Source of the DNA: Amyelois transitella
Taxonomy: Eukaryota; Arthropoda; Insecta; Lepidoptera; Pyralidae
Assembly (NCBI RefSeq): GCF_032362555.1
Contig: NC_083514.1
Span: 4,945,001 to 5,009,000 of the forward strand
Length of the DNA: 64,000 nt
Direction of reading: 5' to 3'
The position numbers and the translations under genes were made by a program. The notes below the pieces were generated by a model. It saw only the letters and a list, made by a program, of their open reading frames with translations. It made no database searches and was not told where the DNA came from. Below, one piece after another: positions 1,302-42,111 of the stretch; the stretch's first letter is position 1, and each line of letters opens with the position of its first letter.

Positions 1302-1390
1302 CACGTGAAAGCTAGACTGGCTCATGGCCTGGACCAGCCGTCTAGACACATACTCATAGGCTAAAAACGCGGTCGGCAAGAGGCGGGTTC
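1302..1390. promoter_or_regulatory. CpG-richer islet with GTCTAGAC palindrome
   Basis: An exact GTCTAGAC lies at 1340-1347, and a GCTAGACTGG half-copy lies about 35 bp upstream. The surrounding 80 bases are GC-rich compared with their AT-rich flanks. GTCTAGAC is the palindromic Smad-binding element of the literature; function here is inference. Confidence 0.35.
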
Positions 1391-2400
1391 CCCGAGTGCC
1401 ATAAACAGACAGTCATCTCATCATTCTAAAAATTACGTCATGCGTTCTCTGGGTACTTTTCCTACTGCATATTCTGCTTAGATATACATATATAGGCCAC
1501 ATCGTTTTATAGACTGCGTATTATAGGTATCCATGACAGAAGTCTAGTGTCACCAAGAAATTTATCTGTATTCTTTGATTTGAAAATGTTTTTGACATGT
1601 TCTTTTTAAAATATTTTAGGTTTATCCTTTGCAATAATGACACTTCAATTCTGCAATATTCAGATTTCATGTGGCATATTTAGATAAGAACGTAAAAAAA
1701 CAATTTTAGTCACCTTAGATGAAAAGCGTAGGTAACTATTTTTTACCAATCTTATGCAGAGTAGTTTAGATATAATGCGTCGGTAAGTTTAGTTACAGTA
1801 GGCATCAAATAATTCATATGATGGCGGTGACCACAAATCTGAAACCGCAGCATATCCTCATTTGTAGATAACGAATCACATGATACCTACTTACTCGCTA
1901 TATGTTGGTACGTCTGAGCATTTAAGTTTAAATAAATTAAAGTTAGTAACAAAATATTTCACAGTATAAAGGAACATTTTTTCAGTATCTTACTCAAAAT
2001 GAAGGACCATTAAATCTTGTTATTTTTTTTTAAGACAACGGTCAAGCAAAATGTTACTACATTCAGAATCCTACTTCCATCATAAGGTCATCCAGCCATA
2101 GATCGGACTGCTCCGTAAGAGATGGACATCTTCCTAGTCACACCTAGTTCACCATTTGTTCTAGTCATAGCCTAATCCCGCTTAGTTTGCAGAAGCTCCG
2201 GATCCACTTTCTGACATTGTCAACTTACTTTTAATCATCTAGTATTTGGTAACTTGTGAAACGTTTTTTACCTAAGTTTATTTTAATGAATAAAGAGAAC
2301 TGTTTAATTGTTTCATGCTTCTGGCATACAGCACAGTACACGTACTACAATGAGATTCTTCTGCACTCTGGTTATTTTGTGAATTGTTGATTGTTACGCA

Positions 2401-2475
2401 GTAGATGGCGTCCGTGGCTGCGGTCGCGTTCGTATTAAAAATTCGTCTGTGGACTGTCTAGACGAGGCCCGCTTA
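2401..2475. promoter_or_regulatory. GC-richer islet with GTCTAGAC palindrome
   Basis: GTCTAGAC lies at 2456-2463 at the right edge of a short GC-rich block that also carries GTCTGTGGAC. It belongs to the recurrent palindrome set described in the findings. Confidence 0.35.
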
Positions 2476-3593
2476 CATTGTCATGTCATGACAAACAACC
2501 ATCACTAACTTATTACATGAACGTTCTAATAGGCAGTTATAACTTTTCCTCATGCACGTCGGTCGATTTATGCGAAAATCTGTGCAATCAGCCTTTTCAA
2601 AACGTTCGACGGAAGATTCCGCTGCTGAGTATACAACGCTCATATGAGTTACGTAGGGTTTGAATGCTAACTGATGCTCTAACAGTAAGACCTGCACTTT
2701 TCAGGCAACAGCCAGGAATAATTTAGGTTTTCTAAGCTTACTTAGTATTTTTTTTGTTAGCCATAATATAATAAAAATATATTATTTTTATATACATATT
2801 ATATACATACCCTACTAAACAACTTTTGATCGATCGATTTTGATATTTTTTGACACAGAGACAGACGAAACCCTTTTATTTGAATATCCACTTGAATGAA
2901 AAAAAAATATTTGTATTTTTCTGTTCCGAGTTCCGAGAGAGTTAAAGTCATTACAAAACAAAAGGTGGGGCTCTAATTGAATTTAAAATATTTTAATAAC
3001 GAGTCGATTGATAGCGTCAAGTTTTTAACTGAAGTTAGTCAAGTGCGTGTATGAGCAGTTTTTGTGATAGTCTATTTATTCTCGTACATGTTATCGCCTT
3101 CCTCGGTCATTATACCTGCAGCTGCTGCTATGCTACTGTGACGTACGTAGACTTTGAACTTCTCTGTATTACCAATAACTTGACATGTCTGCAACGACTC
3201 ATATGAATGTATTTTCATATAATGTGACCCTGAAATGATTTTGCATTTAATTTTAAAATTGGCATGGCATGTTCTTAAAATTAGCTTATTTTATAATGAA
3301 ATATCCTTTTATGTTATGCTTTGTTGCGAGAGGTCAAAGCAGCTATTGTAGGTACGAGTATATTATAGGCGTAACAAGATTTTGCCAATATTTGATTAGG
3401 TAGTAATTTTGCATGAGATTAAGAAATGACTAGCCGTAATGATGATTTGTTAATGTTATAGTATTTTATGTTTGCAATATAAAGTGGTGGCAGCTGCTTA
3501 ATTCTACAGATTACCTTATCTATTTATTTGTAACGGACAGTGACAACTAAGTTTATACAGATGATACAGATATATTGTCATGAATTATTAAAA

Positions 3594-3759
3594 AGGCCAC
3601 GTTCAGCTGTGTGGTTTAATAGAAAGATAGAGACAGGTTGCTAGCCCATCACCTAGTTTATAAGCCTATCCCTTAGTCGCCTTTTACGACACCCATGGGA
3701 AAAAGATAGAGTGGTCCTATTGTTTTTTTTATTGGTGCCGAAAACCAAACGGCATACAT
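3594..3759 (-). repeat. SINE-like element copy (CCGTGTGGTTCCC family), partial
   Basis: Read on the minus strand it follows the same order as the copy at 4055-4320: a degraded GGTTTTCGGCACC, AATAGGACCAC, CATGGGTGTCGTAAAAGGCGACTAAGGGATAG (in short blocks), GGGCTAGCAACCTGTC and CAGCTGAACGTGGCC. The tail part is missing. Confidence 0.75.
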
Positions 3760-4054
3760 TTTTTTTTTTCTAGAATATTTCTTCTTAAACCGTATTGACA
3801 ATTTTGAAATTCCGTCATAAAATATGAGAATATGCTATTATTTAAGTGTTAGTGTTGTCGGTTGCTGAGGGCGTCTGTTCTTTGATTTTAGAAAAATCGA
3901 ATATTATTAAAATATGTATATACAAAATATAATTTTAACAGATTCCGATACACATAGAAGAGTAGGTATGCCTATGACTCTAACTAATCAAATAAGTCTT
4001 AAATATAATTTAAATATTTTGCATTGACTTGTATTGTTCGGGCAAGTTGATCAA

Positions 4055-4320
4055 CCGTGTGGTTCCCGGCACCAATACAAAACAGAATAGGACCACTCCA
4101 TCTCTTTCCCATGGATGTCGTAAAAGGCGACTAAGGTATAGGCTCATAAACTTGGGATTCTTCTTTTAGGCGATGGGCTAGCAACCTGTCACTATTTGAA
4201 TCTCAATTCTATCATTAAGCCAAATAGCTGAACGTGGCCATTTAGTCTTCAAGACTGTTGGCTCTGTCTACCCCGCATGGGATATAGACGTGACGATATG
4301 TATGTATGTATGTATGTAAG
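4055..4320 (+). repeat. SINE-like element, near full length
   Basis: Best copy in the window of a repeat that recurs at least 12 times. Order of blocks: CCGTGTGGTTCCCGGCACC, AATAGGACCACTCC, CATGGATGTCGTAAAAGG, GCGATGGGCTAGCAACCTGT, AAGCCAAATAGCTGAACGTG, a CTTCAAGACTG block, GGCTCTGTCTACCCCGC, GATATAGACGTGA and a TATG microsatellite tail. It has no coding capacity. Its type (SINE versus other non-autonomous element) is not settled by the sequence. Confidence 0.8.
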
Positions 4321-5235
4321 TTGATCAAAACTTGTTTGTAGAGGACTGCGCGCGTTTGTTAAATCACGTTGCTACCGTATGTGATCGTTAGTGACGTACT
4401 GACTGAGATCTTAAAGGTAAGTAAAGACTGCTCTTTACCTATCAATTTTGAGAACACTTCGGTGTGAATTGAATGACGTATGTTTCGAATTTGAATTGCC
4501 ATGTTTGTCGTCTTATGAACTCACTGTCACTGCTTTCTCCGCCTGCTGCAGCCTTTTGGATGAATGACATTCACTTTACCTAATGATACAGTAATTGCAT
4601 ATTTCCAAGCTATTCTATTGTTCTTGTCATTTTAAAATAGCTAAATGTCATATTTTATAAAGATTTAAAGTTCAGTGTCAGAAATGATGAAAAGCAAATC
4701 ATAGATATTGCCTATTTATATTTAAATAACCTGTTCGTTATGAACACTCTATAACTAACATACATGACTATCGCGAGTTAATAAGTGCGATTTGTCATGT
4801 CAATCGTGAATACCGATAGGGATCTCCAGACAGGCTTAGCTTATTTTTATTCGTAGGAGAGACTCGCAAAAAGCGTGCCGTTGGGAACATTATATTCAAT
4901 GCACATTTGGCTGCGAATATTGCTTGCAGTAGTGTTACCAGCTTTTCTCAAAATTGTTTCTGCGAAAGGTTACTTTTGTAAATTGTAAATTGTACTTTTA
5001 AAAATCGGCTAACGGTTAGTTATTCAATAGTGATATGTGAGTGAATCATTTATCGTGTGTTCTATTTAACTGAATCCGATTTTTTTGTTTAAATACCCAA
5101 AAATAATATCCGAAACAACCTAGTTCCTTAAAATTTGGGGACAAAATCCCTAAGTTGGTGACCGTTGCTTGCAAATTGTGTTTGGTGGACACAAGGAGCG
5201 GGTGTCGTGTGTCGCTAAGCTGACACGGATGGGAC

Positions 5236-5298
5236 GTCTAGACGTACCATTCATGATCTCATACCAGTATCAGTATCTTATATCTTTAAAGTCTAGAC
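5236..5298. promoter_or_regulatory. Pair of GTCTAGAC palindromes 55 bp apart
   Basis: Exact copies lie at 5236-5243 (inside the 10-bp palindrome CGTCTAGACG) and 5291-5298. Pairs at this spacing are the arrangement expected of clustered transcription-factor sites; the factor is inferred only from the known Smad-binding palindrome. Confidence 0.4.
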
Positions 5299-6479
5299 TG
5301 GTTGCAGGCTGCTCGCAAAAAATAGCGAGCACTGCACGATGTGAAGGTCTCTACACAGGCGGTGAACAAATATCTCTAATAATATTCAGTTGACTGGTTT
5401 CGAGTGGCTGCATTATTTTTACTACTTTAACTAAAACTAGTGATGACGACAATTAGTCCTGATTTATAACTTTTCACTAAATAAAACTCTGGACACGATA
5501 TAAAAATGTGTATTCGGTCAGCGTTCGAAAAAAGGTGGAAAGATTTTTCTCTTTTCTGACTATGGAAATTACGAAAACTAATTGACCCAAACAACTAGGA
5601 AGCTTTGTAAAAACTATTTACATGGAACTAAATAAATTAATTGGGTAACAGTAATAAATTTTAGGCACGTTACATTGTATAGAGTTTAAGTATTTAAATA
5701 TCTTAATATGTTTAATTGTGTATTAGAAGATAAAAACTGCTGATATTTATTGCGTTGCACAAATTGTTAGTCGGTAGGTAATTTATTTTTTCATAATAAA
5801 ACTAGCTGATAACACAATGTAAAGGGTATTTTCCAAAACTAGGAATCTTTTCAGTTCTAGGCTATGCAGCTACTTTGTCTAGTTTCGATATGCCAAGACG
5901 GCAAATATTTCATGTTTTTATTTTTTAGAAGATTTGGTTTGCGGTTTAGGTGGACACATGCAAGCATTTGGGTTTATTATGACGATTTTTTTTTATCTAA
6001 CGAAATATGTTTATATATATAAATTTTTTAAATAAAGGAATCCTCATACGATTTCAAGTTATGCTAATTCGAATTCTAAAAATTTTCGAAATTTCACACA
6101 AATTACAACACACGCTATAATAAAGAGTAGATAGTCAATCAATATAAAAATTTTCCGGAAAATTCAGGCGACTGTAAGTGGAGATATTTGAGAACTTTAA
6201 CATACATTGGGTTGTTGATTTCTTAATCTATTCATTTTAGCTAAAATATTGTCTTGCTCAAGTGGCCACCGATGACGGCATGATTTCGATACGTTCTAAC
6301 GCCATGCAATCTTCCTTGTGACGGAGGGATATCCTTATTGCGAGGTTTTTGTTTACCTAAAACTAACGTTTAAAATTAAATTAAAATTTGTAATCTACAG
6401 CGACTCTTGAAAATCAGCGAAGGCTACATGGTTATATGTACTTAGTGTCTGGCAGGTGGTACGTATATACGCATATGTA

Positions 6480-6605
6480 GGGATGGTTACCGCGGCCACT
6501 GCACCTTGTGGTGGAACTGGTCGTGAGGGGGGCGGGGAGGGCCGTGCCTCAGGCTCATCGACCTCATCCTAGTGGTTTGCGGCTGCAGCGGCGCCCGACT
6601 GCCGC
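6480..6605. promoter_or_regulatory. CpG-rich islet
   Basis: A sharply GC-rich block of about 125 bp in AT-rich DNA, with several GCGG/GGCG and GCAGCGGCGCCC motifs. No open exon with splice sites could be assigned. It could be an enhancer or a non-coding promoter; nothing further can be said. Confidence 0.25.
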
Positions 6606-7195
6606 AAAAAATCAACTAACCCAAATTTCGGTAGCCGTCTGGCGCGATCTCTCCACACAATAAGATGATTACAGAGAGAGAAAGAGCTCAATATATAATT
6701 CACTTCCTTTGAATAACAGACGCTGTAATTACCTCACCAATTTAGTTATAATATACATATAAGCGGTTTCACGCAAAAAAGGGTCTAGTAGTCGACGAAA
6801 ACTGGATCCCTTTTGCGTGGAACGCCACACGAATTTCCTTTTTTTTTTAATAAAACCAGACTGCTGGCCTGATTATAAGTAGTGGTGGTACGCTTTCCCG
6901 TATTTAATAATATCCCTGTCTAGCGAATCGAAAGGATATTAGCTTCAGACACTTTAACATTTCTGTGCTTTTTCTTATTATTTTAGGGAGGATTGCGATC
7001 GAATGATTGTTAGGTCACTTGATCCTGGGTTGTATTTTGGTCCAACTGAACGCTTTGAGTCCTCTGATATGGTAACCTAGATCTCCGCGTAACAAGTTAA
7101 TAATTACGACCTATCAAACTTTAATAAAGCTAGACTCCATCCATAGATATCAGAATAAAACAATTGTATCTGAAACTAAATTTTAATCTCAATTA

Positions 7196-7310
7196 GATAT
7201 CATTAGGCCTAACAGCTGAACATAGGCCACGTTCAGCTGTTAGGCTTAATCAGTGGCTCTGTCTACACCCCAAGGGATATAGACGTGATTATATGAATGA
7301 ATGAATGTAT
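7196..7310. repeat. Rearranged SINE-like element fragment with fold-back
   Basis: The right part (GGCTCTGTCTACACC, GGATATAGACGTGATTATAT, GAATG repeats) is the plus-strand tail of the SINE-like family. The left part is an inverted duplication: 7202-7221 and 7231-7250 are reverse complements at 19 of 20 positions with a 9-nt spacer, carrying the AGCTGAAC block in both orientations. Ordinary copies have this block once, so the second arm arose after insertion. Confidence 0.7.
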
Positions 7311-8039
7311 CTGAAACTAAAAGAATGATGTGTCGTCGTCCTGCAATGGAAACAGTTTTCAGAGCAAAGCTATCAAATAACTTTTTGGTGACTGGTGAGA
7401 AACTCCTCACCGAGTAAGAAATTCCTCCTGCAGCCATCATGTTCGTGCGTGACGTAGCAGACAAAATACAGGAAAACCCCCTACGCTGGTACGGCCATAT
7501 CTTGTGGAGATCCAGGGTAGCACACGCAAAGATGTGATAGAGATAACTATCAGTTTTCTTATTTTATGATTCTACTACTCTAGAAACCATAGAGGTCGAG
7601 AGTTGTCTATTCTTGTCTGATCACAGACAATAATAGATAGATCGTTTTGTCAAAGTTTAATTTCTGTTTGTTCGCTATTTTCTCTATTAAATACCCCTGG
7701 CACGGGCGTATGTAGGTAATCAGCACGCGTGCGCATCAAACTCAACGCGCGATTGACATTAGTCGGACAAGGCACTGCCAGTTTCAATCTGCCCCTATCA
7801 CAGCTACATACGAGTACTTTGCATACTTATTTGAATACGATAGGTGTTTTATTTATTCTTTATTAAAAGGAATTTCATTTAATATTAGGTCTTTACATGT
7901 GAAATTGGCGTTTGGTATCGGAGGAACAAAAAGTGGAATATTTTTTAATATAATATACTTATTTACTCAAAGTAAGAACCATATTATCTATATATCCATC
8001 ACATAGGTAGTTCATTGATCCCTTTACTAAAAAAAACCA

Positions 8040-8930
8040 TTCGGACGGGAATCAATAAAATCTTTTAAGGCAGTTCGGACTGCCCTATCGGAGTTGAATT
8101 TTACCCTTGGAAGAAGTCATTTCGAAATCATTCATCCCAAATTTCGAAAAAATGGTAATCTGTTTGAGCAAGGAGCGGGGAGCACAGTGGATGTCTTAGA
8201 CATTTCAATTGAAGCTCCTTGGTAGCCGTCTGTTGTGCAGTGTGTGGTCTAGCGTTGTCGTGAAGCAACAGTCTCGTGGAGCTATTGACCAGCCTCGGTT
8301 ATTTAGCAGTTAACTTTTCCACTATAGTTTGCAATTCCTGACAATAGACGTCTGCCGTAATCGTCTGGCCAGATTTGAGAAAACTGTAATGGAAGACACC
8401 GGCACTAGTCCACCAAATGCTTATAAGTAACTTTTTTGGGTAAATTTTCGCTTGGAGCAGGATTTGGCTGGCTGGCCAGGGTCTAGCCGTTGCGATGACC
8501 GTTTCCGATTATCGTAGAGAATCCACTGTTCATCACAGGTAATGATTTGATTTAAAAACGCTTCATTATTGTGCGGGTTAAGTAATGTAACGCAGCAGTC
8601 GACACGCATTTGCCGGTTTGCTTCACTCAATCCGTGAGGTACCCACCGTTCAAGTTTCTTAATCTCCTTAATTTGCTTCAAGTGGATTAAATTAGTTTTA
8701 TCACTAGCACCAAATTTAAGCCTGAAGCTAACTCGGATGTGGTTTGCGATGGTTACGCTTCCTCAATAACTTTCAATTCTTCATAATCAACTAGGGTTTC
8801 CCGCCGTCAAAGGGACTTGTTGTGCAGGTCGAAATTTCCAGAACGGAAACGTTGGAACCAAAAATGCACTGTGTTCATAATCAATAACCCTTCGAGCCGT
8901 TTCCGCAGCACGGTACCATGGTGGAACTCG
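8040..8930 (-). pseudogene. Mariner transposase remnant
   Basis: The longest open part is 8421-8681 on the minus strand. It encodes an HGLSEANRQMRVDCC block, which corresponds to the conserved mariner HxLsxxNxxxRxxxC segment, followed by ITCDEQWILYDNRKR. That block contains a catalytic aspartate in the mariner TCDE-WI-YDN motif. The reading frame breaks on both sides, and further mariner-like fragments continue toward both ends. The intact protein would normally be about 345 residues. No function is expected. Confidence 0.85.
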
Positions 8931-8988
8931 TTCTTGTAAATAACGCGATATTTCAAGTTTTCTATTTTGTATACTGAGTGACGCAAAT

Positions 8989-13591: not shown

Positions 13592-14114
13592 TTATTTAAC
13601 AAATGTAAAGTAGTATAAACCATGTTTAGTCACATCTTCCACAGAGAAAGATCGTCGATCACAGTCGTGACAACCGTGTATTTATGGTAAAAATTATTGA
13701 ATTTTAGTCACCATCATAACTTTACACGAAGTGACTTTAGCAAGTTCAGTGCAATCAGTTCCTGTTAAACAAGTAAAGGTGTTAAGTTTAACTTTATATC
13801 TCTTCGGGATATCTGTTAAAAAAGAAGATAAACAAAGAATAGCGCTGCAATTCATTTTGATACTACATGTTGACGGTCAAGAAAGAAATTATGAATGTAC
13901 GTAGAACCGATAAAAATTAAAGACTTTGTCATCTTATATAGGTATCGATTATAATATTGAATAGTTAACTACCAATAAGTTGGGGCGAAAATAAATGTTT
14001 TTATATATATATATATATTATGTTTGTCACGCATTTAAAGTTCCGAGCTTCTCTCCGAAGAGGGTAAAAGGTTGTAAATAATACCAAGTTTGTTTACAAC
14101 GTAGTTAGTCCTAT

Positions 14115-14124
14115 GTCACGTGAC
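14115..14124. promoter_or_regulatory. GTCACGTGAC E-box palindrome
   Basis: A perfect 10-bp palindrome of the bHLH-zip (USF/MiT-TFE type) class, about 75 bp left of the CpG-rich island at 14195-14545. Binding is inference from the motif. Confidence 0.35.
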
Positions 14125-14194
14125 AAATATCATAATAGGTAATATAGGTATCCTTATCGATTCTATGAAAAGTTCCCTTTCTACGGTTATCTAA

Positions 14195-14545
14195 GCCACG
14201 GCTGGGGCGGTCGGGCTTAGGAGCGGCTGTTGATTGTGTTGTCGTTCAGTGCACCGCTACTTGCATTGCAGCATTACCGTTTGAAAGATAAACCGGTGAT
14301 CGAAACAGTGCATGGCCGTCGGTCGGGTGGCGGTGGGAAGCGCGGGGTGCGGGGCGCGAGGCGGCCGTCTAGACGCTACGTCACGCGGCCTCGCGATACC
14401 GCGTCGCGTCGGTAAACAACGTTGTGCACTGACCGAATATGGCAGCCCACAGCCCGGCACGCCGCTCGACGGCCATCCTGCCGGCCTACTGCGGTCACGC
14501 ATCCCGTGGAACCTGCGACCACCACCAGAGGAAACCGCTTTCCCA
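14195..14545. promoter_or_regulatory. CpG island, candidate promoter or 5' exon
   Basis: The strongest CpG-rich block in the left half: about 350 bp with many CG dinucleotides, containing GTCTAGAC at 14367-14374 within CCGTCTAGACG. Open frames run through it on both strands, as expected in GC-rich DNA, and none looks protein-like or is preferred. With the upstream GTCACGTGAC it could be a promoter with a non-coding first exon; no downstream coding exon could be attached. Confidence 0.4.
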
Positions 14546-14669
14546 ATAAGAAATCTCTGAAACCTGTTCTCGCTGTCCTCGTCAACCACCTCTACAATCT
14601 TTGCCTTCGTAATTTCGTTGTGATACGATCTCATATTGTTCGCCTGTCAGGCATTTAATCTAGTTTCAC

Positions 14670-16254
14670 TACAAGAGATTAAATTGGTATTGTGGCCATC
14701 AATCATCCCGATGGCAGATCACCATCAAAACCTCGTCCGTACAGTCCATACATCATTTAGGAAATATAATAATGCCTTTGTTTCGTAGACGCACATAAAT
14801 GGATAATGTGATTATCATTTTACTGATGCCTATGTTAAATGAGACATTGTAATGGAGTAGGTCATTACCTACATCAGTCTATATGCTTATCTGTCATAGC
14901 TGTTAGTATTTGATAAAGATTTATCGTGAACGTCTGTCTGGCTAACGGATTATTACATTACCGTCAATTTATTAACAATGTTTTACGAGTTGGGGTTCCT
15001 AATGTGTGACATAGGTAATAATTGATACATTTTGTGAACAATGTGTGTTTACACAGTCTGAATCACATGTTTATCTGTAACAATAAACGGCGTATCTGTG
15101 TCTGTCTGTTTAAGATATGTAGGTGTTTACAAATAGTTTGTTGTGCCGGTGTGTCGGGTGTTTTCCGGTTTTTACCGTGACGGCGCCGTGATCGGATGGG
15201 TGTCCCTGTTCCAAATCAATGTCTTAAAATTTTTTTACATAAAGATAGGCGGCCGTATTAATTCCTAACTAGTGGGCTTCTAAACATCATCGCGATTAAT
15301 TGGTTTCAATTTAGGGAACATACCTAAATTAAAAGTAACCCTACCTAGATTTTAATATGCATTTACATACATACGTACATTCACGTCTATATCCCATGCG
15401 GGGTAGACAGAGCCAACAGTCTTAAAAAGAATGATTGGCCACGTAAAACTGTTTGCATAATATGCATTTTAATTAGGTGAATTTTAGAAACTTTTAATTG
15501 TCGACATTTGGAGTTACATCCACGATGTAACTCCATACGGCTATAATAGCATTTGGCTTTATTTAACAGATATATCTCTAACGTCGATGAACTGTAAAAT
15601 GTTTGGATGATTTCACTGAAATAAAACAGTTGAACAGTTGGGCGAGCATGAAGGAGTGTACTCCACCCTTTACATCTTGTGTTCAGTGAATTTATATAAC
15701 ACAGCTTCACAGGCACAGGTAATCATTGAGCATTGAACATTCATGTTTCAAATCGGTGAGTCGGAAAAGCGGAAACGGACAGTTCATGTTGATTAGCAAT
15801 TATATGTAAAACAAACAGTCAATTTTGCTCTTATCAACGACTTACCTCCCAATCTTCATTTTTTGATTACAATAGGTACAGTGGGCTCAGAAGATAGCTC
15901 TGTCACCTCGCCTTAATTACTGTATGGGAGATGGCCCAGGTATGTCCTGAGCCGTATGTGTACTAGTAAATCATAAAAATTTAAATTTACTTTTCTAATA
16001 AATCACTTTCAAGTTGTCAATGATTTAATTTATATGTATTGATTGATGACTCAACATCAATACATATAATGAAACAGTAAAAAAAAATTGTTTGTACTAT
16101 GAGTATATTTAAAAAAAAATATTTAATACGATGAAGAAATAGTAACCGAGCTTGAAAAAATCTGTTTCTTTGTACACGCTAATTTCCGGAACTATTGAAC
16201 GTATTTGAATGAAACTTTTTTGTTGTATAGCTCTTATGCCTGGCCAACATTTAG
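14670..16254. other. Gene-free stretch
   Basis: No exon was seen. It holds a SINE-like fragment (15366-15455, minus strand, GACGTGAATG, GGGGTAGACAGAGCC and GGCCACG blocks) and a 12-bp-arm hairpin with a 3-nt spacer at 15509-15535. Confidence 0.4.
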
Positions 16255-18790: not shown

Positions 18791-19337
18791 AAACCTTACA
18801 CTAGTTTAAGTACATTTGGTATGTACCTGTCTATAAAAACAAAAGAAACAAAAGAAAAAAAAAATGTAAGAATTATGAAATAAAACATAATAAGTAATAA
18901 CAAAACGAAATGAACGTAAGGACATATACCCATCACGAATCCAAAACAAAATAATTTTAGTTTTTAAGCAGGGATTTCTAATAAATTTTCTGTTTCTTCA
19001 TAAGTTAGAGATTTCAACCAAGAAAAGGTAGTTTTCTTACAATTAAATTTAGTAAGCTAATATACAATATTAGTAGTAAGTTAATATACAATTATAATAT
19101 AATAGCTTGGTAGCTAAAAGTCCAAAGTTTCACATTCGTTTATTTAAAATTGTCGTTGGTTTTCTGTTCCCGTAAGGGCGCGTTTATATGACGCGGAATG
19201 TTACAGCGTGTCGGCCGCGCGACGAAAGTATGGTGACCGCGCGGCGGCCGCGCGGTCAGGCCTGGTGGCCACGCCACTGCGAACCCGAACCATTTCCAGT
19301 TGATCTTGGTCTTTCTTAAAATTCACACGTGTTCGTT

Positions 19338-21431
19338 ATGAGCTATTTGACTAAGAAGAATAAAATTATGATTGCATATTACTTGTACCGACAAAGCAAA
19401 AAGAAAGAAAAAAAGAATTGTAGAAAATTTTGGATTCATCCTATTTTAGCACGGCGAGAAGAGTTTGGTGAATTTCATACGCTATACAACCAATTGCGAG
19501 AAGATGAAAAAGAATTCGCAGATTATTTCCGAATGGATGTTAAAACATTTGATAAACTACTCAACTTCATACATGATAAATTGAAGCACCAGAACACTAA
19601 CATGCGGGACAGTATTACCCCCACAGAAAGATTAGCAGTGACATTGCGGTAAGTAAATAAATAATAACAATTACTTGGTCAAGTGGTATTTATTAATCAT
19701 TATATATATAAATTTGTAAGGCAGACTATATATTTGTAAAATCTAAATCGTCGATACTTGAATTGGATGGACTGGCAAAATTGTATTGCTCTCCACCTAC
19801 GGTAGATTCGGACTCTTCAGAATAAGATGATTGTTGTGTTGTCGGACGTCCAGATCCAGCAGCAGTAGTGTAACCATACTGATAGGTGCTTTCGTATGAT
19901 ACATTTTCGCCTTCTCGACGATACGTAGTCTCGGGTGGTGGAGTAAAGTAAGGCCTTTTCGAACCAGCATTCTGGAGCTGTTGGTTTTTAGCTTTTATAT
20001 TTCTCACAATAGACATCACCTGGTACTGAAACTCAACAGTATCTTCATCATTGAATTGTTCAACAGTTGGTAAAATTCCTTTAAAGAACGACATCATACG
20101 ACTGTCTTCTTCTTTTTCAACAGAGTCCATAAACTTCATGAATTTTGCATCCACATCACTCAATTCTTTATTTTTCGTATTTGGTTTACTTTTTCCTGGC
20201 TCAGAATTCTTAAAATTTGAATTAGTTTCGCGGGGGTTGTATATTTTCTTTAAAAACAACATATTATCATAGTATGGGTACTTATGAACTTTTTTTGTTG
20301 CAGATCCAGATTTGTTTTCCCTCATTTTCTTTTCGCATTTCATCCACCCATCTCGCATATTTTTCCATTTCTGAATAACTTTTTTACCTGGAATTTAAAA
20401 ATAATATTCACATTAAAAAATATAGTTATTTTTAATTCGCATGATTCCTCTTTATGTTTCATTATCAGGAAACATGTTAATTAATATTAATACTATTAGT
20501 ATAATTAATTGCTTGAAATAAGTTCCTTAATATCATTTTATATATTTACAGGTACTTGGCAACAGGTCACACGTTTGCCGATTTAAGATACGCATTTAGA
20601 ATTGGAAAAACAACATTATCGTTTATCATTAAAGAAGTGTGTAACTGTATATGGTCAGAACTAGTAAACATATATATGAAAATACCATCAGAAAATGAAT
20701 GGCTGAATATTGCTGAAGACTTTGCTGTTATTGCAAATTTTCCCCACTGCCTAGGTGCTGTGGATGGGAAGCATATCAGAATAATTAAACCTACAAAATC
20801 TGGATCAATGTTCTTAAATTACAAACACTTTTTTTCTATTGTATTAATGGCAGTCGTTGACACCAATTATAATTTTATATTTGTAGATATTGGTGCATAT
20901 GGCAAGGACTGCGATTCAAGTGTTTTTAAAGAAACTGTCTTTTGGAAGAGACTGCTGAACAATACACTTAACTTACCACAGCCTGCTCTGATTCCAGAGA
21001 CTAATTTTCAATTACCGTACGTATTTGTCGCGGATGAAGCATTCGCGTTGCACAAAAATGTACTGAGACCATTTAGTGGTCGAGAACTCAATGAAACAAT
21101 GTCAATATTTAATTATCGTCTTACTAGAGCAAGACGTTATGTGGAATGCGCTTTCGGCATAATGGCCAATAAATGGAGGATCCTCCATCGGCCTTCAAAT
21201 GTATCTTTGGAGCTCACAGTCGACATTGTAAAAACCTGTTGTTTATTACAAAACTTCATACATAAAGAACAGGGCATAGGTAATTTAATTGTCGATTCAG
21301 GCTTTGAACTACAGACACTGTCACGATCAGAATATGCAGATCCTTTAATAGCAGACAATGTTCGTCAAAATTTTGCTGAATATTTTGTTTCTCCTCAGGG
21401 CAGTGTACCATGGCAAAACAAATATATATAG
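19338..21431 (+). CDS. PIF/Harbinger transposase (DDE nuclease), two exons
   Basis: Exons are 19338-19648 and 20552-21431. The join CG|GTAAGT to ACAG|GTAC keeps phase and gives 396 residues, usual for the family. The N-terminal part (residues 1-150) is a basic helix-turn-helix region with FRMDVKTFDKLL and FRIGKTTLSFIIKEV. The DDE_Tnp_4-like nuclease begins at AVDGKHI (D175), followed by KDCDSSVF (D225), VADEAFAL (D265) and ARRYVECAFG (E302). D175, D265 and E302 fit the Harbinger catalytic triad. Nothing in the frame is broken, so it may still be active or was recently. A GTG lies in frame 9 bases upstream of the chosen ATG. In this superfamily the transposase acts in the nucleus with the partner protein encoded on the other strand here. 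Confidence 0.9.
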
Positions 21432-21767
21432 ATACTCAAAATTATCAAATCACTCGTTTATTGCAAGAATATCACAGTTAAAAAACAATTTTAAACTTAA
21501 CTCAAATAATATTTTTTTGCGATTTATGATGATGATGAATGTTCACAATTTTTTAATTACCAAATAAAAGATGGAAAACTTACCGTATGTGTTTTTTTCC
21601 CCAATTGGAAGGTCATTGAAATCTTCTTTTATAATTGAACATAGGTCATGCCAGGCTTTTAGTGTTTGACGTTTATCCTTATAGGATTCGCTTGTTTTAT
21701 CCCAAAGGATATTTCTTTCTTCCACTAAAGATATCAATGTCTCAGGATTGATACTCAGTTCATCCAT
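19726..21767 (-). CDS. Harbinger MADF/Myb-like accessory protein, two exons
   Basis: Minus-strand exons are 21767-21584 and 20387-19726. The join G|GTAAGT to TTCCAG|GT keeps phase and gives 281 residues. Residues 1 to about 95 form the MADF/Myb-SANT-like DNA-binding domain with LVEERNILWDKTSESYKDKR, AWHDLC and KKVIQKWKNMRDGW. The middle is acidic (VEKEEDSRMMSFFKGIL), and the C-terminal 120 residues are rich in S, T, Y, Q and G and likely disordered. In the superfamily this protein carries the transposase to the nucleus and to the element ends. Its exon 2 sits in the transposase intron, and the transposase exon 2 sits in its intron. Confidence 0.85.
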
Positions 21768-23350: not shown

Positions 23351-23693
23351 TCCCTATATATATATTTACTTTCTTTTATCCAAATTCATCAATCATTTTA
23401 TATTCAAGTACCTACTTTTGAATTGACCCGTCAACAGAATTTATCGGATTTGATCCAAATACAGTCGCTTACAGAGAAACTGAGATCCAAATTAATAGAA
23501 GGGAAGACTCCCTTAAAATATTTTAAGAAAATTAAATATGAATTAAAATCAAACAAAACTGGGTGAACACAAAAGAAAGTCGTGATGCGCGACGATCTCT
23601 GTCGAGTTCTGTGCTCTGTTGTTCTGAGTTACATAACAGAGAGGAGCGGGCGGGATAAAACGGGATTCGGTTACCTCAAGAGCCTTCAGTCTA

Positions 23694-23735
23694 GTCTAGA
23701 CGTCTGGCGCCGTACGTGACGTAGACGTGCGTTCT
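23694..23735. promoter_or_regulatory. GTCTAGAC palindrome in CpG-rich islet
   Basis: GTCTAGAC at 23694-23701 overlaps AGACGTCTGG and is followed by GTACGTGACGTAGACGTGCG, a run of ACGT-containing motifs. Confidence 0.35.
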
Positions 23736-24235: not shown

Positions 24236-24315
24236 GCGGCGAAGCGTGTCGGTTAGTCTAGACTGAGCGGGGGCGAAAGCGGGCGCTCGGCTAGACGAGC
24301 GGAAGTGCGATCCAC
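24236..24315. promoter_or_regulatory. CpG-rich islet with GTCTAGAC and a half copy
   Basis: GTCTAGAC lies at 24256-24263 and GCTAGACGAGC about 30 bp downstream. The block between is strongly GC-rich (GAGCGGGGGCGAAAGCGGGC) in AT-rich surroundings. Confidence 0.35.
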
Positions 24316-25515: not shown

Positions 25516-25532
25516 GTCTAGACGCTAGACAC
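25516..25532. promoter_or_regulatory. GTCTAGAC palindrome plus half copy
   Basis: CGTCTAGACG (GTCTAGAC at 25516-25523) is followed directly by CTAGACACG, giving two adjacent AGAC half sites. Confidence 0.35.
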
Positions 25533-33244: not shown

Positions 33245-33310
33245 CATGGTTTGAAAAATGTGGATGCAGCAAAGGAAGTATTCAGGGATCGTTGTAAGTG
33301 AAAAGATTGC
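33245..33310 (+). repeat. LINE 3'-end remnant
   Basis: GTGGATGCAGCAAAGGAAGT and CAGGGATCGTTGTAAGTG match the degraded LINE end seen better at 54690-54775. Confidence 0.5.
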
Positions 33311-34429
33311 AAAGTATAGGGTAGGCTATACTCCTTTCGAAAAGGGAGCGTAATCAATGTACTTTAGGTACTAGGTACAACGCTTGCTACGTTTACTTGA
33401 TTCTCGAAAATAAATTTTTATTTATGCTGAATTTTTTTGCCATGAATTTTACCATTTTTTGTTCTGACATTATGAATCTCTTGATTAAACTAAGTCGCCA
33501 GAGGGGCGACGTGGCGGAAGATTCCATAAAACAGATTAAAAAAGCTTTGACTCTCTGTATTCTGTGGCGTTGATCAGCCACTTTTTTAAAGAAAACTAAC
33601 TTAAACACTAATATAAATAAAATACTTACACTAAAAACAAAAATGTTTTGTATGATATTTATGATTTGTATATAAAAATGTCATACAATAAATTGGGACA
33701 TAAAAAGTTAAAACCAACTAACATAAGAGATGCGCTTTTGGTATCGTTAATAGGTGTGTACTACCTTTTGAATGCCTAGTGCCATGTACCAACAAATTAT
33801 TACGAACTAACTACTCAAAGGCATTCTAAGACTTTGGCATCTGATACTTACATACTTAATTTAATAATGGGTCGTGGTTTGCAGAATCAATACCCAATCC
33901 TAAAAGTACAAGTAGTGCTAGTAATCAAAATAGAAACTTTTGAACGAAAGTTTATATTGTCTGTTCATAAAATTAAAATTACAACAGAAAAGTAGATGTT
34001 CTGTTTTGAAAAATAGATAATTATTTGAGGGCAATGCTCATAGAAAACAATTCAATGATTTTGTGTATTTTCTGTTTACAGAACAAACTGATCTTTGAAG
34101 CTCTCAATGTGGATTTCTATGCTAATTAATAATTAAACAATAAAAAACAATCATTTCACAATACATAATGTAAGATTATGTATTGTAAATTGAGTCATTA
34201 ACTTAATAACACTAAATATATATGTTTAAACATGATCCCCAGATCCATTGAGACTCAGATCAATCTGAAAAGGGCACTTTACATCTTAACATAACGAGAG
34301 ATTGAATCCGAGAGATCCAGATTAATAGCCAGGCAGAGGACCCAGTAGGTCAATACTTCAAAAGTTTCATAATTTAATAGGTACATGTACATGTACAGAT
34401 TATAATTATTCAACACGCCCTTCAGCCTC

Positions 34430-34590
34430 ATTTAGTCTGAAGCGAGACGGGACAGTAAGGGGACGGAAAGGGTAGCGGGTGGGGGTGTGTGGGGGTTTAG
34501 GTGGTACTGGGGTCAGACGGCGGCGTTCAAGGTTAAGGCCACCCGCCCTTCGAGCCACCCGCCTCACGCACACTGGAGGTAGCCACATGC
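34430..34590. promoter_or_regulatory. GC-rich islet
   Basis: About 160 bp of GC-rich sequence with GGGTGGGGGTGTGTGGGGG, in AT-rich flanks. No exon with splice sites was found. Confidence 0.2.
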
Positions 34591-35122
34591 CACAACTACG
34601 TCACAGACAATGGAATTTCACTATTTTCAACAATGTCTAGATTTTTTTAATTATCTAGATTCATGTTTTTCAGGTTAACAGTGAAAATTGGTAGGTATAT
34701 CGAATAGTGAAAGTCAGAATGGTGCCAGTAAAGTGTGCTGTCAGTGTTCTATGATCGGCCAACATCATTAAACATCTTTACTAACATGATAAAGGTGCGC
34801 GATCAGGCGATGTGATGTGACGTTTGGTTGATAAAGTCAAATTCAGATAAAATAATTTTGATTGCTTTAAATTAGTACGACAATATCATATTATTTAGTT
34901 ATAACATGATGTAGTAGATGTTTGATGATTCAATTCAATCATTGATAATAATCTACGAGTATGTTAATAGTTGAAGAGACATGCTAAATGTTCATGATGT
35001 GGTGTCGTGCACATAGCCCACGCTGTCTATGCGGAAGCTGAAAATACACCACTAATTGACTATTATTTTCTGTGAATAACATTTTACTAGTAATGTTACG
35101 ACTATCACATAGGTGAGATCAC

Positions 35123-35130
35123 GTCTAGAC
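35123..35130. promoter_or_regulatory. GTCTAGAC palindrome
   Basis: It lies within the 12-mer ACGTCTAGACGT, which is itself palindromic. Confidence 0.35.
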
Positions 35131-37339
35131 GTTTCGCTGCCAACAAATTAGCTGCAAAATATTACTGGCCAGTATTCTAATGGCCTATGACTTTATATTT
35201 ATGGGGTCGATATCTATTTAAAACATACAAAAATAGTTAAAACTTTTAATTCAAGCTTCTTCAAGAAAAGCCTTATAATAATAATATAGATTATTATAGT
35301 TGTTATTCATACTCATTCACAAAAAGAACACTTTAGTCATTGAAATTAAAAAGTCATGAATATCCCGAATTCGATACGATTCCCTAGGGGCGAGGCTCGA
35401 AGCATAAAGGCACGTAGGTGCGCCGTTCAATGTACGTACATATACAATACAATATATACAAAAAGTACCAGAGGGTAGTTCTTGTAGTTACGAAACGCAT
35501 TCTGATTAGTTTTTCCCGAGTCGTAATAGCGCCGATATCCCCAGGAAATGTTTGAACTAATACAAAAGGAGACCTCTTGATTATTGACACATGATAATCA
35601 AATGATGTTTGTCTTACATTCACATATTTGTCATACACATTAAAATTTAATTGTTGCTATTCATTCCGATTTCTACAGTTAATAAAAACTGTTACCTTTA
35701 AAAATTGCGCACAAATGAAATTGTCCTTTCTCAAAATTATATTAATGATAATCAAGGTAATATGTTGGTGGTATTATCTAAAATGAATATTTGGAAAATA
35801 CCCGGCTGAGGATATCGGTTATCTTCCATATGAATCAGATAACGAGTATTGAGGATTATGGCTCATTTGCAAGGATATTGGCAGAACAAGTAATCTGTAT
35901 TTCATTTCAGTATAACATTTTCTATTTAGCGAATAAATAAGCTTAATGGCTGATAATTAATGAATTAACTCATCTAATACCTACAAAGAAGACAAGAATA
36001 ACTCCTTTTAAAATGTCCAATACATAGGCTTTAATGGGTATTTTCTCGAAGTTTCGGTTTTCTGTACTGGCAAATAGGTTTACTACCTTATACTTCTTAT
36101 GGATATTCGTGTGTACATGCCGAACAAAAGCTTCTAGCCTCTTCTAGCTTTCTAAGGCTAGAGCCTTGAAAGTGGAGTACCTATCTTATTAATTAAAAAG
36201 ACAGTCGTTTAGACCGTTATTTTATTTACGCGTCGGTATTCATTCAAGCACAATTGATTTTTGCCAACTTGTTTAGGATAAAGGCAAGGGTTTAATATGC
36301 AAGATCGGCATTCATTTACCCGCGACATGTGAGTCAGTTTAAGCCAACCGACGGATATGAGTTCTTCCACCGCGTTATCGGCCGGCACTTTTGTTAAATT
36401 AAAATGGATGAGGTTTAAAGTGGATGGAGCGGTCGTAACTAACGGTTGGCGGCGACGAAGTCTGCGTGATTACGACAATCTGTTACGTATAGTGGCAAAA
36501 ATGTGCTCCATACAGAAAAAAAGCTTTTATAAGTAGCTAAGGAATAAATTCGATGATAACGAACCGTTGTGTTATCCTATTGCGTATTGCATGCTAATAA
36601 AAATAAAATATCATATGTATATATTTTGTGACAAAGAGTTGTGACAATTTACTCCACAAAGTATAGTTTTCTTTAAAACATATACTGTACTCCTACCCGC
36701 TTATGATTCTATCTGAACTGCATAGATACTGCATACAACAATGAAGTAATGTTTATTTAATTGAACCACGCCCATTTAGTTTTGACTTTAGTATTGTACA
36801 AATGTTGTCCACTTCTTACCTACTATTTATGGTCCTCTTCTGCTCTCTCAATGTTTTTATAAAACAGCGCTGTAGAAATAGGATCAGCGAGCATCGCGTG
36901 GGGTCTCGCTGTACTTATAAAGGATATTTGGATTAAGGCTATTCCTAAACTATTCAAGGATAACAGTGGAATTATAAATAGTACCTATTAAAACTACTAA
37001 CTAACATATGAACCCATTCATAGTTATGATAAAACAGATGTATAAAACACATTTTACAAACAAATGTTGATACCTATCTCCGATTTTGGAGCAGTTCCAT
37101 TAATTAGAACGGCTGAACTGATTTTTTATAACTATTTAATTCCTTAAAGGCTTCAACTACTTACAAACACAACCTTTCGTTTTGTTATTCACTCAGGTTT
37201 TGGTATACTTTGGTTTACTTGCCTCCACTTAAATCACCTGAATCGACTTGAAAAACCCATTGAATAACAATGTTACACACAATAATGAAAACAAAGTAGC
37301 TACATAAAACTTTTAATACCCCTTCGATTTACAAATCTA

Positions 37340-37740
37340 TTTTGCGTATAGAGGCAGCCTTACGCGCCCCAAACTTCCTTCGCAGTCGGTGTTTCTGGCC
37401 TACACCAGTCCACGTGGTGGACTTGCTGTGCAACAGCAAGACAGATCATGGCTCTTTCTACATTAGTTTGATTTCTAACGATGCACTTACGGTGAAGGAA
37501 AACTTCATGAGGAAACCTGCAAATTCGGGCAACTGGATGTGTAAACATGATGGATACAATACAGGGTTAAGTTTACCTGCGAAGGTTGCTGTGTTCCGAT
37601 GGTAGTAACTTCGTTTAAAACCCCAGATCACATCCAGGATCCATTGTCAAAGGCATACCCCGGGCGCCTCTCCAAAGTGGTGAGAATCCAAACTGGACTA
37701 AAGCCAGAAGGAAGAACTTCTTACTAGAGAAACAGTCAAC
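37340..37740 (-). repeat. Dispersed repeat, minus orientation
   Basis: Its reverse complement matches 56190-56530 in order: CTCTGGAGAGG-like block, CAATGGATCCTGG, AGGTTTCCTCATGAAGTTTT, CCTTCACCGTAAG and GTCCACGTGG toward the left. It resembles a common lepidopteran retroposon with a GTGGACTT-rich segment. It is non-coding here. Confidence 0.6.
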
Positions 37741-38502
37741 TGAATCATTTTCCAGTGTACCGTAACTGTCGTACCTATAAAAGCCACTAGGAAAGTTTCG
37801 CCAATCTTATCTACATATCAATGACTTACCTAGGTTTTGTAGTAATTATTTTATCATAATTCAAAATGTATCGTGAATGAGCTCTGGAAATCGGAGTAAC
37901 CACCTACGATAACATTGCTTAGCTGCCTATATATAAAATCACAAAAGACCCAGACAAAAAATAAACATCAATGATCAATTTAAAATTACATCTTGGCGTG
38001 TTGCTTAATCCGGAGGGGTCAATTTGAAATAAAATCTGTCTGGCTATAATAAAAAGTTGATTGTATTTGTACCGCTTGACCTGTGGCTTGATGTCGGATT
38101 TAGCATTTCACATTCAAATATAAGAACACAGTCTGATTGACTGACAATAGCCGTGAATGCTTACATTGTTTGCGAAAAAAAATATTTAGCACTTTGATGT
38201 TGTTGAGCCTTGATCATATTATGAAAAAAACATAAAAACCTCTAAAATAAATTCAATCGACAGTTATAATTTAGTTTAAAAAAAATGTTAGTCGGGTCAG
38301 CAGCAAAAAAGCTTTGAAACCTTTTACTTTGCTTGCAATTTTTCATCAATATATCAATTAACATTAATTTTATAGCGGTAGTGCGACACAGTATGTCCCG
38401 GGTTCGAAATCTGACTAGGACTAACTAGACTAGACATAACGAAAAACTATCTTTTTAATAATCTTTTTTCTGATTGGTCTGGGTCTAAGATTTTTATCTT
38501 TG

Positions 38503-39075
38503 CATACATACGAACATAAAAACACGCCTCTTTCCCTGAGGGGTAGGCAGAGAATACCTCTTTCCACTTGCCACGATCTCTGCATACTTCCTTCGCTTCA
38601 TCCACATTCATAACTCTTTTCATGCAAGTTCGGCGGTCACGTCAGGACGTCCTTAATTTGATCAAGATACGTTCGGATAGGTCTTCCCACTCCGACCTTT
38701 CCCTCCACACTCTCCTTGTATATCTGCTTAGTCAACCTGCTTTCATTCATCCTCTCCACATGATCAAACCATCTTAACATACCCTTTTCTATTCCTGTAA
38801 CTACATCTTCTTTACATCACAACATTCCCTTATCACGCTGTTCCTTATCCGGTCACTCAATTTCACACCCATCATACTCCTTAACGCTCTCATTTCCACT
38901 GCATTTATTCTGCTTTCGCGCTTCTTTTGCCATACCCAACTTTCACTCCCATACACTACCCTATGCACAGCCAGTCGAGCCTTTTTGGATAGTTTCTGAC
39001 TGCTCATAAAGGCATGCATAGGTCCATTCACCATGTTCCCCGCGTTCACTCTGCTTTCAATATCACTATCACATA
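38503..39075 (-). mobile_element. 5'-truncated LINE inserted in the SINE
   Basis: It is flanked by an 11-bp direct repeat TTTTATCTTTG at 38492-38502 and 39076-39086. The coding strand is minus, the 3' end lies on the left (GCATACATACGAACATAAA), and it carries the end of a reverse transcriptase. Related tail fragments occur at 23290, 30125, 33245 and 54690. Confidence 0.85.
38660..39070 (-). pseudogene. LINE reverse transcriptase C-terminal remnant
   Basis: On the minus strand the open part 38801-39049 reads SKKARLAVHRVVYGSESWVW, then INAVEMRALRSMMGVKLSD and RIRNSVIRECC. This is the C-terminal region of a non-LTR reverse transcriptase, in which the Y-GSE-W block is conserved. It continues, in a shifted frame to the left, with LRWFDHVERM- and VGRPIRTYLDQIK-like segments. 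It is a truncated insertion copy and not functional. Confidence 0.8.
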
Positions 39076-39431
39076 TTTTATCTTTGAATGTATGTAAATA
39101 ATGTATTGTTTAGTTACTATCTCGTAACACAAGTTTCGAACTACTTCCGAGGCTTACTCAATCTGCATGATTTGTTCCGTGTACTTTGTTATTATTATTC
39201 CCATTTATTGCAATTTATAGGCATTTTTTATGAAACAATCGAAGGAAAAAAACAAATGGGTTTAATTACCTAATAGCCTCCGATTGCCAATTATTTATAT
39301 CTAATACTCATAAATAAAGTGCAAATTCTTTTTATTTATATTGAAAAAAAAACGTGTATTTGAAAATAAACTCCTATTTTTAGCATAGTGTAAATAGCCG
39401 TCTAGGTACATAAATTTCCATAATGCAATTC

Positions 39432-39505
39432 GTCTAGACCAGACAAAGTACGCTCAGGCTGAAGCTGGCGGAGGCAGACACCGTCTAGAGGTGAATCTAG
39501 ACATA
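39432..39505. promoter_or_regulatory. Islet with GTCTAGAC and two near-copies
   Basis: GTCTAGAC at 39432-39439 is followed by GTCTAGAGG at about 39484 and ATCTAGACAT at about 39496, with a GC-rich segment between. Confidence 0.4.
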
Positions 39506-39848
39506 ATGCAGTCTACGTGAGGCTCTCCTTTTCCTTAATTATGTAATTATGTCTGGATTTGTCTTGGACATAACATACGCACTCGATCTGTTCAAGTTAA
39601 TATTTAATTTTTTTTTGCATCCAAGATGATGTACTGAAATTTCATGTGATTGAGGTATTCTCCAAGGTTAACTTATTATAGTAAAATACAAAACAATTAA
39701 AATCCCAAAAACGTCAAAACAAAACCATCTAAAGACAATACCTTAAATAGGCCATGGACCATTTGGAAAATTACTTGTTTGTATGTACACGCGTTCTCAC
39801 AGTAGACTCATACGTCATTACGTCTATTAGGTGACTAGTGTTTGCCTA

Positions 39849-39930
39849 GTCTAGACTGTAGACGTGAAGTGAGCGATGAATAATATTAGGACAACAAACG
39901 TTACGACCGTCTGGAGGTGAGACGAAGGCC
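39849..39930. promoter_or_regulatory. Islet with GTCTAGAC
   Basis: GTCTAGAC lies at 39849-39856, overlapping CTAGTCTAGACTG, followed by GTAGACGTG and CCGTCTGGAGGTGAGACG, giving four GTCT/AGAC half sites within 80 bp. Confidence 0.35.
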
Positions 39931-40308
39931 TCTAGTTGCCTTTCACGTACGAGTTAATGTTCTGTGAGTTAATGCATCTCGTATTTTTTGTTAGCGCCGA
40001 ATAAATAAAATTACTTACATAAACGTCTAAAAGGTACGCAATTTACCTACTTGCTGAAAAGATTTAAAAGTTATAAATATTTAAACCAGTTTTATTATAT
40101 TAATTCCTATACCATTCTTCGTGAGGTTGGTAAGTTTATCATGCATGCATGTCTCTATGTATATTAATAGAGATAAATCACTTATTTTTTAACAACAAAC
40201 GGTTTCACATACGTTCCTACTTACGAATACAAACGGGTTTTTCATTTCACGTGGCACGTTCATAGAATACGGAATAACATAATACTATCCAATTCAATTT
40301 CTATGGAC

Positions 40309-40361
40309 CAATATTTATATTATAATATAAATATTGATTATATATAATTATATATAATCAA
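40309..40361. repeat. Two adjacent AT palindromes
   Basis: A 26-bp palindrome centred on TATTATAATA (AATATTTA to TAAATATT) is followed at once by GATTATATATAA/TTATATATAATC, a perfect 24-bp palindrome. Confidence 0.8.
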
Positions 40362-40369
40362 CTAGCTTT

Positions 40370-40515
40370 TACCTATAGCTTCGCCGTATTATTTTACCTA
40401 TAAAATAATACAGGTTTTTCGCAAATTCCAAGAAAACTCTAGATTTTTACGGATTGAAAAGTTCTCTATGTCTTTCTCTAAAGACTCTTAACTATAAATG
40501 CATATGATTTAAAGT
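40370..40515 (+). repeat. Degraded dispersed retroposon end
   Basis: GCTTCGCCGTATTATTTTAC, AATACAGGTTTTTCGCAAAT and CTCTATGTC resemble the repeat at 60045-60200 (GCTTCGCCCGCGCGAAATAA, AATACAGGTTTATCACAAAT, CCTATGTCC), a widespread arthropod LINE-type end. Confidence 0.5.
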
Positions 40516-40616
40516 ATGAAGTAAGAGGACTATCATTAATATGTCGCGTACTTAAATAATAAGTTCGCAAAGGCATATAGGCCTGCAGGCAGCTAGAGCG
40601 GACATGTCGGTCGAAT

Positions 40617-40635
40617 GTCTAGACTCTAGACAGCC
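40617..40635. promoter_or_regulatory. GTCTAGAC with overlapping half copy
   Basis: GTCTAGACTCTAGACAGCC gives one full palindrome (40617-40624) and a CTCTAGAC repeat directly after. It is followed by a C-rich segment, CACCCCCTCCCCTCTCGCGCC. Confidence 0.4.
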
Positions 40636-42103
40636 TACACCCCCTCCCCTCTCGCGCCTTTGTCAACACCACGGAAAACATCAGACATCTTTTTGTTAAC
40701 AGTATGAAATTAATATTTGGTTTTAGGAAAACAACAATCCTAAATAGATTTTTCCTCTGAAATATCTTTACAAACTATATGAAACTCTACCTAAAACTTT
40801 AGATCTTAATAATCATTTGTGTTTATACCTATTATGCGACCCAAAAAATCTGACACAATTAATAGTCACTTTAAAAAAATATCTGAAATACCACTGTCTG
40901 TATTCTGTATGAAATAATACCTACATGTTCTATCGACATACAGCCGTATCACTATATGGAAATTATGTCTCCCAAACATCCGTCAAGGAAAGCTATTTAG
41001 AAAATTTTCGTCTAGTTAAGATTTTATTTAAAAGTTTCTATACCTTTCCCTGAATTGACTTTTACAATTTACGCGGGAAGAAAAAAAGTTGGATATTAAA
41101 AGCTATTACGAGTCGCGAACACTGCAGCGTCTGCCCTTCCGTCGCCCTTAACGTAGTGCGTAGGTGTTTAGATTCTAGACTTTGTAGACATATTGGCCCG
41201 TGCAGTCTGCGAACCCCCGCTAGAATCAAAAATGCAGTGAGAAAATAAATTATCTTCACTGCGCAATCGAAAAGATTCGTAATTTAGTACTTAGTAAAAA
41301 CCGCATATTCATTCAATGGAACGACAGATCTTGAGAAATACACAGATAGAAGGACACGAAGTCAACATCTGCTAGGATCGGGTTATTCAAAAACGTGTTA
41401 TATTATTTCTATCACGTTACAAAGTATCAAAGAAATGAAAATATTTAAAGACAATACAAAACACATAGCTCGTAGCACAGCTACGTACGACCGTTAAGTG
41501 TTTTCAGCAAAGTAATTAAAAGTGAATAAGAAAAAAATATTTATATAATACGAGTATCAGTATATTTAATTAACTTTATACCATAACTTAAGTATAACCA
41601 TGTTTTCCTTTACTATTCACACAAAATTTTAAATATAGTGCTCCAAAAAATCTTTAAATTAAACAAGAAAATTCTAAGGCATTTTGAGTCGTTGAAAAAC
41701 AGTATTAATTACAAGTCTAGTTGTTATTGTACAGTAGGTACATTTATTGGCAAGTCAGACGCAATAAATTACTTATTCGAGACTTCAGACAAGTTTAACA
41801 GCTGTTGTTATTCTGACCTCAATAGAAAGTGTTTTATAATTCGGCCCAATGAAAATAATGCTTCAAAGAGTATTTGAAATTATCTTTGCAATTATTTTGA
41901 AAAAGCACTAATCATGCAATTCGATAGTTGTCAATTGTAAGTAGATAAAGAAGCATTAAAATATATGTAATATTTTATTTTTGAGATTTCATTTTCACTA
42001 GTTTAAAAACAAATGACCACCTGATATAATAAAAACTTATTTTCTCAGGAAGGTCCATTGAGCTTTGATAATAGGCACATGTATAAAATAGCTGAATGAT
42101 CTG

Positions 42104-42111
42104 GTCTAGAC
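42104..42111. promoter_or_regulatory. GTCTAGAC palindrome, rightmost copy
   Basis: It lies 1.4 kb upstream of the first called exon of the gene at 43511. A GCTGGCACCGTCTCGGCTCG block follows within 30 bp. No exact copy occurs in the remaining 22 kb. Confidence 0.35.

Follow-up and report, generated by a model that had tools for sequence, protein, structure and literature searches.

A natural copy of the palindromic Smad-binding element (SBE), in which the half-sites GTCT and AGAC abut to form GTCTAGAC, is found in the vertebrate SMAD7 promoter. In the excerpts of PMC11607640 available to us, to which our statements about that paper are limited, Smad-DNA binding is portrayed as weak and as depending on 4-bp half-sites that need cofactors, Smads are described as acting as trimers, and a pilot in-vitro selection from a 12-nucleotide random library showed TGF-beta-activated human Smad complexes concentrating the 12-mer GTCTAGACGTCT. 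A BMP-type composite motif, GGCGCC with GTCTG at 5-bp spacing, is described in excerpts of PMC11907993. According to the accessible part of PMC5727232, the hairpin with which Smads read DNA is identical in amino acids among distant metazoans, with the exception of Drosophila Smad2; insect Smads could therefore recognise this word as well. Here we examine GTCTAGAC in a 64,000-nucleotide stretch of the moth Amyelois transitella (NC_083514.1, positions 4,945,001 to 5,009,000, forward strand; hereafter the window). An earlier note, made from the letters alone, had identified the word as the palindromic Smad3/Smad4 site, and it is exactly the palindromic SBE as the available texts define it.

Abundance and placement of the exact palindrome

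The window holds 13 exact copies of GTCTAGAC, all at the starts given in the earlier note. They are listed here with the domain that contains them (window positions; no strand assigned).

1-43000: gene-poor domain containing all 13 palindromes; Pfam finds transposon-type domains and one chance-level match only
1340-1347: GTCTAGAC, with a CTAGAC half-site at 1312
2456-2463: GTCTAGAC, with GTCT 7 bp leftward
5236-5243: GTCTAGAC, first member of a close pair
5291-5298: GTCTAGAC, second member of the pair with 5236 (55 bp between starts)
14367-14374: GTCTAGAC, within the islet 14070-14697 (54 CpG)
23689-23705: GTCT-A-GTCTAGAC-GTCT cluster, palindrome at 23694, containing an exact GTCTAGACGTCT
24256-24263: GTCTAGAC, with GGCTAGAC 25 bp rightward
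25516-25530: GTCTAGAC-N3-AGAC
35123-35130: GTCTAGAC, outside islets by the thresholds used
39432-39502: GTCTAGAC-N1-AGAC, then GTCTAGAG at 39483 and ATCTAGAC at 39495
39849-39863: GTCTAGAC-N3-AGAC
40617-40631: GTCTAGAC-N3-AGAC
42104-42111: GTCTAGAC, the final copy, with a weak exon-like match at 44186, about 2 kb rightward

This is a sharp excess. Dinucleotide shuffles (n = 100) gave a mean of 0.51 copies and a maximum of 3, with none attaining 13, and the observed count is 25 times the shuffled mean. Markov models of order 1 to 4 predicted 0.43 to 1.44 copies (P 1.9e-15 to 4.9e-9). Multiplied by the 32,896 8-mers, the order-4 P becomes 1.6e-4, and at each order from 1 to 4 the corrected P is under 0.001. 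At order 5 the expectation rises to 5.82 copies (P 0.007, non-significant once corrected) because the palindromes themselves enter that background and set its expectation. Chance, which finds support in that order-5 background only, is practically excluded as the source of the 13 copies. In order of P, only two AT runs come ahead of GTCTAGAC among the 8-mers; in order of ratio, some CpG-only words stand above it. It is the commonest of the 96 half-GC palindromes (13 copies; runner-up 7) and second among 1308 anagrams, the top one being CGTCTAGA (n = 14), which overlaps it.

Exact copies were found 13 times where simulation expected 0.3 (40-fold), whereas one-mismatch words numbered 18 against 13.4 simulated, near background, some of them adjoining a palindrome. 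The exactness of the word therefore matters. The spaced forms GTCT-N1-AGAC, GTCT-N2-AGAC, and GTCT-N3-AGAC occurred 1, 0, and 1 times, which is the chance level. The base immediately flanking the palindromes is G or T in 20 of 26 oriented flanks, while C is avoided (2 of 26).

The copies all fall in the first 42.2 kb of the window, and none is present in the right 21 kb, just as had been claimed for the genic right third; that part should have 0.14 without enrichment but 6.3 if it carried them as densely as the left (Poisson P 0.0017, binomial P 0.0057), with the boundary between the left 43 kb and the right 21 kb picked after the data were seen. The copies fall into 10 groups at a merging distance of 600 bp, and within the 42.2 kb on the left they are not significantly clustered (P about 0.07). 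Outside the palindromes, GTCTAG is also raised in the left 43 kb (26 versus 11.7 expected) and stands at background in the right 21 kb (5 versus 5.8). The half copy AGACGTCT lies near a palindrome in only one of three cases, where it overlaps the copy at 23694.

The surroundings of the sites are rich in GC and CpG. Within 100 bp, GC averages 44% with 11.8 CpG per 208 bp, whereas positions drawn at random from the left 43 kb give 35% and 6.8. We called a stretch of 200 bp an islet when its GC was 43% or more and it had 10 or more CpG, thresholds set by ourselves. Islets so defined make up 28% of the left part (43 kb) and 23% of the right part (21 kb), and 9 of the 13 palindromes fall in them (binomial P 0.002). 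The idea that many copies sit in CpG-rich islets thus holds for those nine under these thresholds and fails for the four at 35123, 39432, 40617, and 42104. A palindrome is present in 8 of the 37 islets starting in the left 43 kb and in 0 of 12 on the right; as most islets lack one, islets alone fail to explain the palindromes. GCCGNC, a word similar to the GC-rich part of the fly elements, was counted 11 times near the sites against 4.4 (P 0.006, uncorrected for GC content). CCGCTC and CGACCG occur within 120 bp of palindromes at 6 and 5 of the 13 sites (0.86 and 0.68 expected), a rise that possibly reflects GC content only. We also note the islet 14070-14697, with 54 CpG in 628 bp and one palindrome, which might represent the promoter or the 5' exon of a transcript that escaped recognition; a 129-amino-acid open reading frame (ORF) within it (14257-14646, minus strand) has no Pfam match.

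Candidate readers of the palindrome

A third GTCT or AGAC lies within 3 bp of the palindrome at 5 of the 13 sites (six half-sites), and the other eight have none at that distance. The local null, built from positions shifted by 20 to 200 bp with palindromes masked, averaged 0.74 sites, and 0 of 5000 draws attained 5. Since Smads act as trimers (PMC11607640, excerpts), three half-sites suit Smads. The arrangement GTCTAGAC-N3-AGAC is present in 3 copies against 0 simulated, an exact GTCTAGACGTCT occurs once, at palindrome 23694, and TGTCTGG, a Smad motif of the CAGA type, is found about three times as often as in simulation (13 versus 4.4).

These patterns in the DNA lead us to propose, at roughly even odds, that the gene-poor part is a distributed regulatory domain read by Smads and serving a gene outside the window, probably to its left. 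More tentatively, and at rather less than even chance, it may be a distributed 42-kb landscape that responds to Smads through perfect palindromic SBEs, some of them abutted by a third half-site, instead of through the Mad/Medea/Schnurri elements known from flies, and would then mark a direct high-affinity Smad target locus. In the accessible literature, an SBE with a third half-site is known from in-vitro selection and artificial reporters. Under the first of these proposals, the one at even odds, the left 42 kb would comprise about ten separate elements, each with one or two exact palindromic SBEs and several with the extra half-site alongside. The co-Smad Medea and a receptor Smad would assemble there in an arrangement unlike the classical Mad/Medea/Schnurri one, with two MH1 domains on the abutted GTCT and AGAC and a third MH1 on the extra half-site. 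The elements might act as enhancers or silencers, and the gene beyond the window, probably leftward, would thereby respond to TGF-beta-family signalling.

Several observations weigh against a Smad reader. The 3-bp gap limit was picked after the sites were seen, and the test for third half-sites weakens as the gap widens (P 0.0002 to 0.0008 at 5 bp, 0.007 to 0.009 at 12 bp). AGAC pairs are elevated at several spacings, partly in the right third (6 versus 1.0 expected for N1, 6 versus 0.95 for N6, 4 versus 0.9 for N3), so N3 is not unique, and CTAGAC doublets arising from local slippage would also yield two of the N3 cases, 25516 and 40617. The second selected sequence, the 18-nucleotide GTCTAGAC-N3-TGTCTGG, is absent from the window, and no co-factor motif stands at a fixed offset from the palindromes beyond chance. 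Single half-sites are nearly equal on the two sides (GTCTG, 2.0 versus 1.6 per kb), and TGTCTGG shows little contrast, its 13 copies being split 10 to 3 between the left 43 kb and the right 21 kb. Neither fly pattern is enriched: the Dpp silencer GNCGNC(N5)GTCT has 1 copy versus 0.38 simulated and the activating GGCGCCA(N4)GNCV 0 versus 0.05. The Drosophila Smad2 exception also weakens the case for Smox. Of the domain responsive to Dpp or activin that the earlier note had offered, the Smad part is plausible and somewhat strengthened by the third half-sites and GTCTAGACGTCT, while the Dpp part found no backing in the fly patterns. A literature search pairing "Smad binding element" with Lepidoptera returned nothing, and the main text of PMC13376614 contains no GTCT, SBE, or Smox.

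How the copies arose bears on the alternatives. For each of the 13 sites we compared 400 bp on either side with the window using blastn; matches appeared at three sites (23694, 25516, and 39432), beside the palindrome, and no palindrome is covered by any within-window similarity, as the earlier report of non-aligning flanks had implied. Within the window, no words are common at fixed offsets around the palindromes. Spread by a decaying repeat was considered and is disfavoured, given one-mismatch words near background and flanks that do not align within the window; the repeat-borne option raised previously loses ground accordingly. A transposon or satellite that carried the motif and spread its copies is thus very improbable, even though transposon fragments (mariner, Harbinger) and repeated SINE (short interspersed nuclear element)-like families share the same 43 kb, since its decaying copies would also have raised the one-mismatch words. 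Because a decaying repeat would leave many near-copies, the pattern is explained more simply by a factor that reads the exact abutted palindrome. It is also rather unlikely, to a lesser degree, that GTCTAGAC is simply common in the non-coding DNA of this species, whether through some habit of mutation or composition or as an old short motif dispersed there, and that the window is ordinary. The left/right contrast does come from a single window with a boundary picked afterwards, but the right 21 kb has no copy and only background GTCTAG, and a compositional habit should have lifted the one-mismatch words and other anagrams too.

The strongest competitor to a Smad reader, which we nonetheless regard as somewhat unlikely, is a homodimeric DNA-binding protein specific to the lineage, for instance an architectural or insulator protein of the zinc-finger or BTB type, that reads GTCTAGAC in islets of this and probably other gene deserts without involvement of TGF-beta signalling. 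The requirement for an exact, spacerless palindrome would suit a tight dimer no less than it suits low-affinity Smads, and so would the slight difference in single Smad half-sites between left and right; ten groups across 42 kb also fit an architectural role. Against this, no insect protein was named for GTCTAGAC among the matches listed in a literature search, and the third half-sites and GTCTAGACGTCT fit the Smad selection data, as far as the excerpts present them. Should Smads be the readers, perfect palindromes in about ten groups would offer a sequence-only route to direct insect Smad targets, and the domain would allow one to ask whether affinity, not cofactors, sets the response. Should another protein read GTCTAGAC, the word would be a good starting point for finding a regulatory factor of insects that has not yet been described.

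Genes and other features of the window

Pfam was run over all six frames of 1-47 kb and over a single frame of each strand of 57-64 kb, with E up to 0.1, a design that Pfam-less exons would escape. The features found, together with two genes of the right third whose single ORFs were scanned, are as follows, with gene extents from our own reading.

near 8.3-8.5 kb: mariner fragment (Pfam)
about 19.7-21.7 kb: Harbinger-type transposase with MADF pieces (Pfam)
44186-44275: weak LLC1-like, exon-like match (21.6 bits, below the 27.3 cut-off)
about 47-52 kb, minus strand: WD40-protein gene; the ORF 51474-51902 matches WD40 families only
about 53-57 kb, plus strand: TMEM55 gene (Tmemb_55A, E 7e-34 for 53922-54248)

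An AGA2 match in the same scans is at chance level (E 0.073). The Harbinger-type element (19320-21740) contains a DDE_Tnp_4 ORF at 20517-21431 (plus strand), and MADF halves lie on either side on the minus strand (about 20251-20385 and 21615-21737), as if the transposase sat inside an intron of a MADF gene. We take the WD40 gene of the right third to be UTP4/cirhin. A literature search pairing cirhin with Lepidoptera found nothing, and in one for cirhin or UTP4 with butterfly terms neither gene word appeared among the matches listed.

Two tRNA-like stretches, 59753-59822 and 61154-61227, scored 29.5 and 31.1 bits in Rfam (cut-off 29); one was also detected by ARAGORN, and a look-alike lies near 53750. 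They are probably tRNA-derived repeats, and the sequence just past them resembles part of the flank at site 39432. The SINE-like repeats of the window have a lepidopteran look. When two SINE-like-repeat patterns from the window were searched for as traces of other lepidopteran DNA, viral contigs contained neither; in genome contigs one had no match and the other a single Desulfospira match, taken as chance. Finally, a perfect inverted repeat at 783-857, with two 37-nucleotide arms and a 1-nucleotide spacer, would form a long hairpin, and TACCTA/TAGGTA is in strong excess across the whole window (108 versus 35 expected).

Comparison with described Smad elements

The locus shares the GC-rich surroundings of BMP-type composites, with GGCGCC present 7 times in the left 43 kb and once in the right 21 kb; it differs in that its palindromes have no fixed-offset partner, the composite having been counted only as the fly patterns. 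With the Drosophila Dpp silencer, as the available text of PMC11907993 gives it, the palindromes have the GTCT half-site in common, whereas the spacing patterns proper to the silencer and activating elements bound by Mad/Medea and Schnurri are not enriched in the window. The closest likeness is to the palindromic SBE of Smad3/Smad4, with which the window shares the identical 8 bp, extra abutting GTCT or AGAC half-sites, and one exact GTCTAGACGTCT. What the accessible papers say of that element comes from in-vitro selection, crystal structures, and short reporters, whereas here an insect gene desert carries it 13 times, in exact form, over 42 kb.

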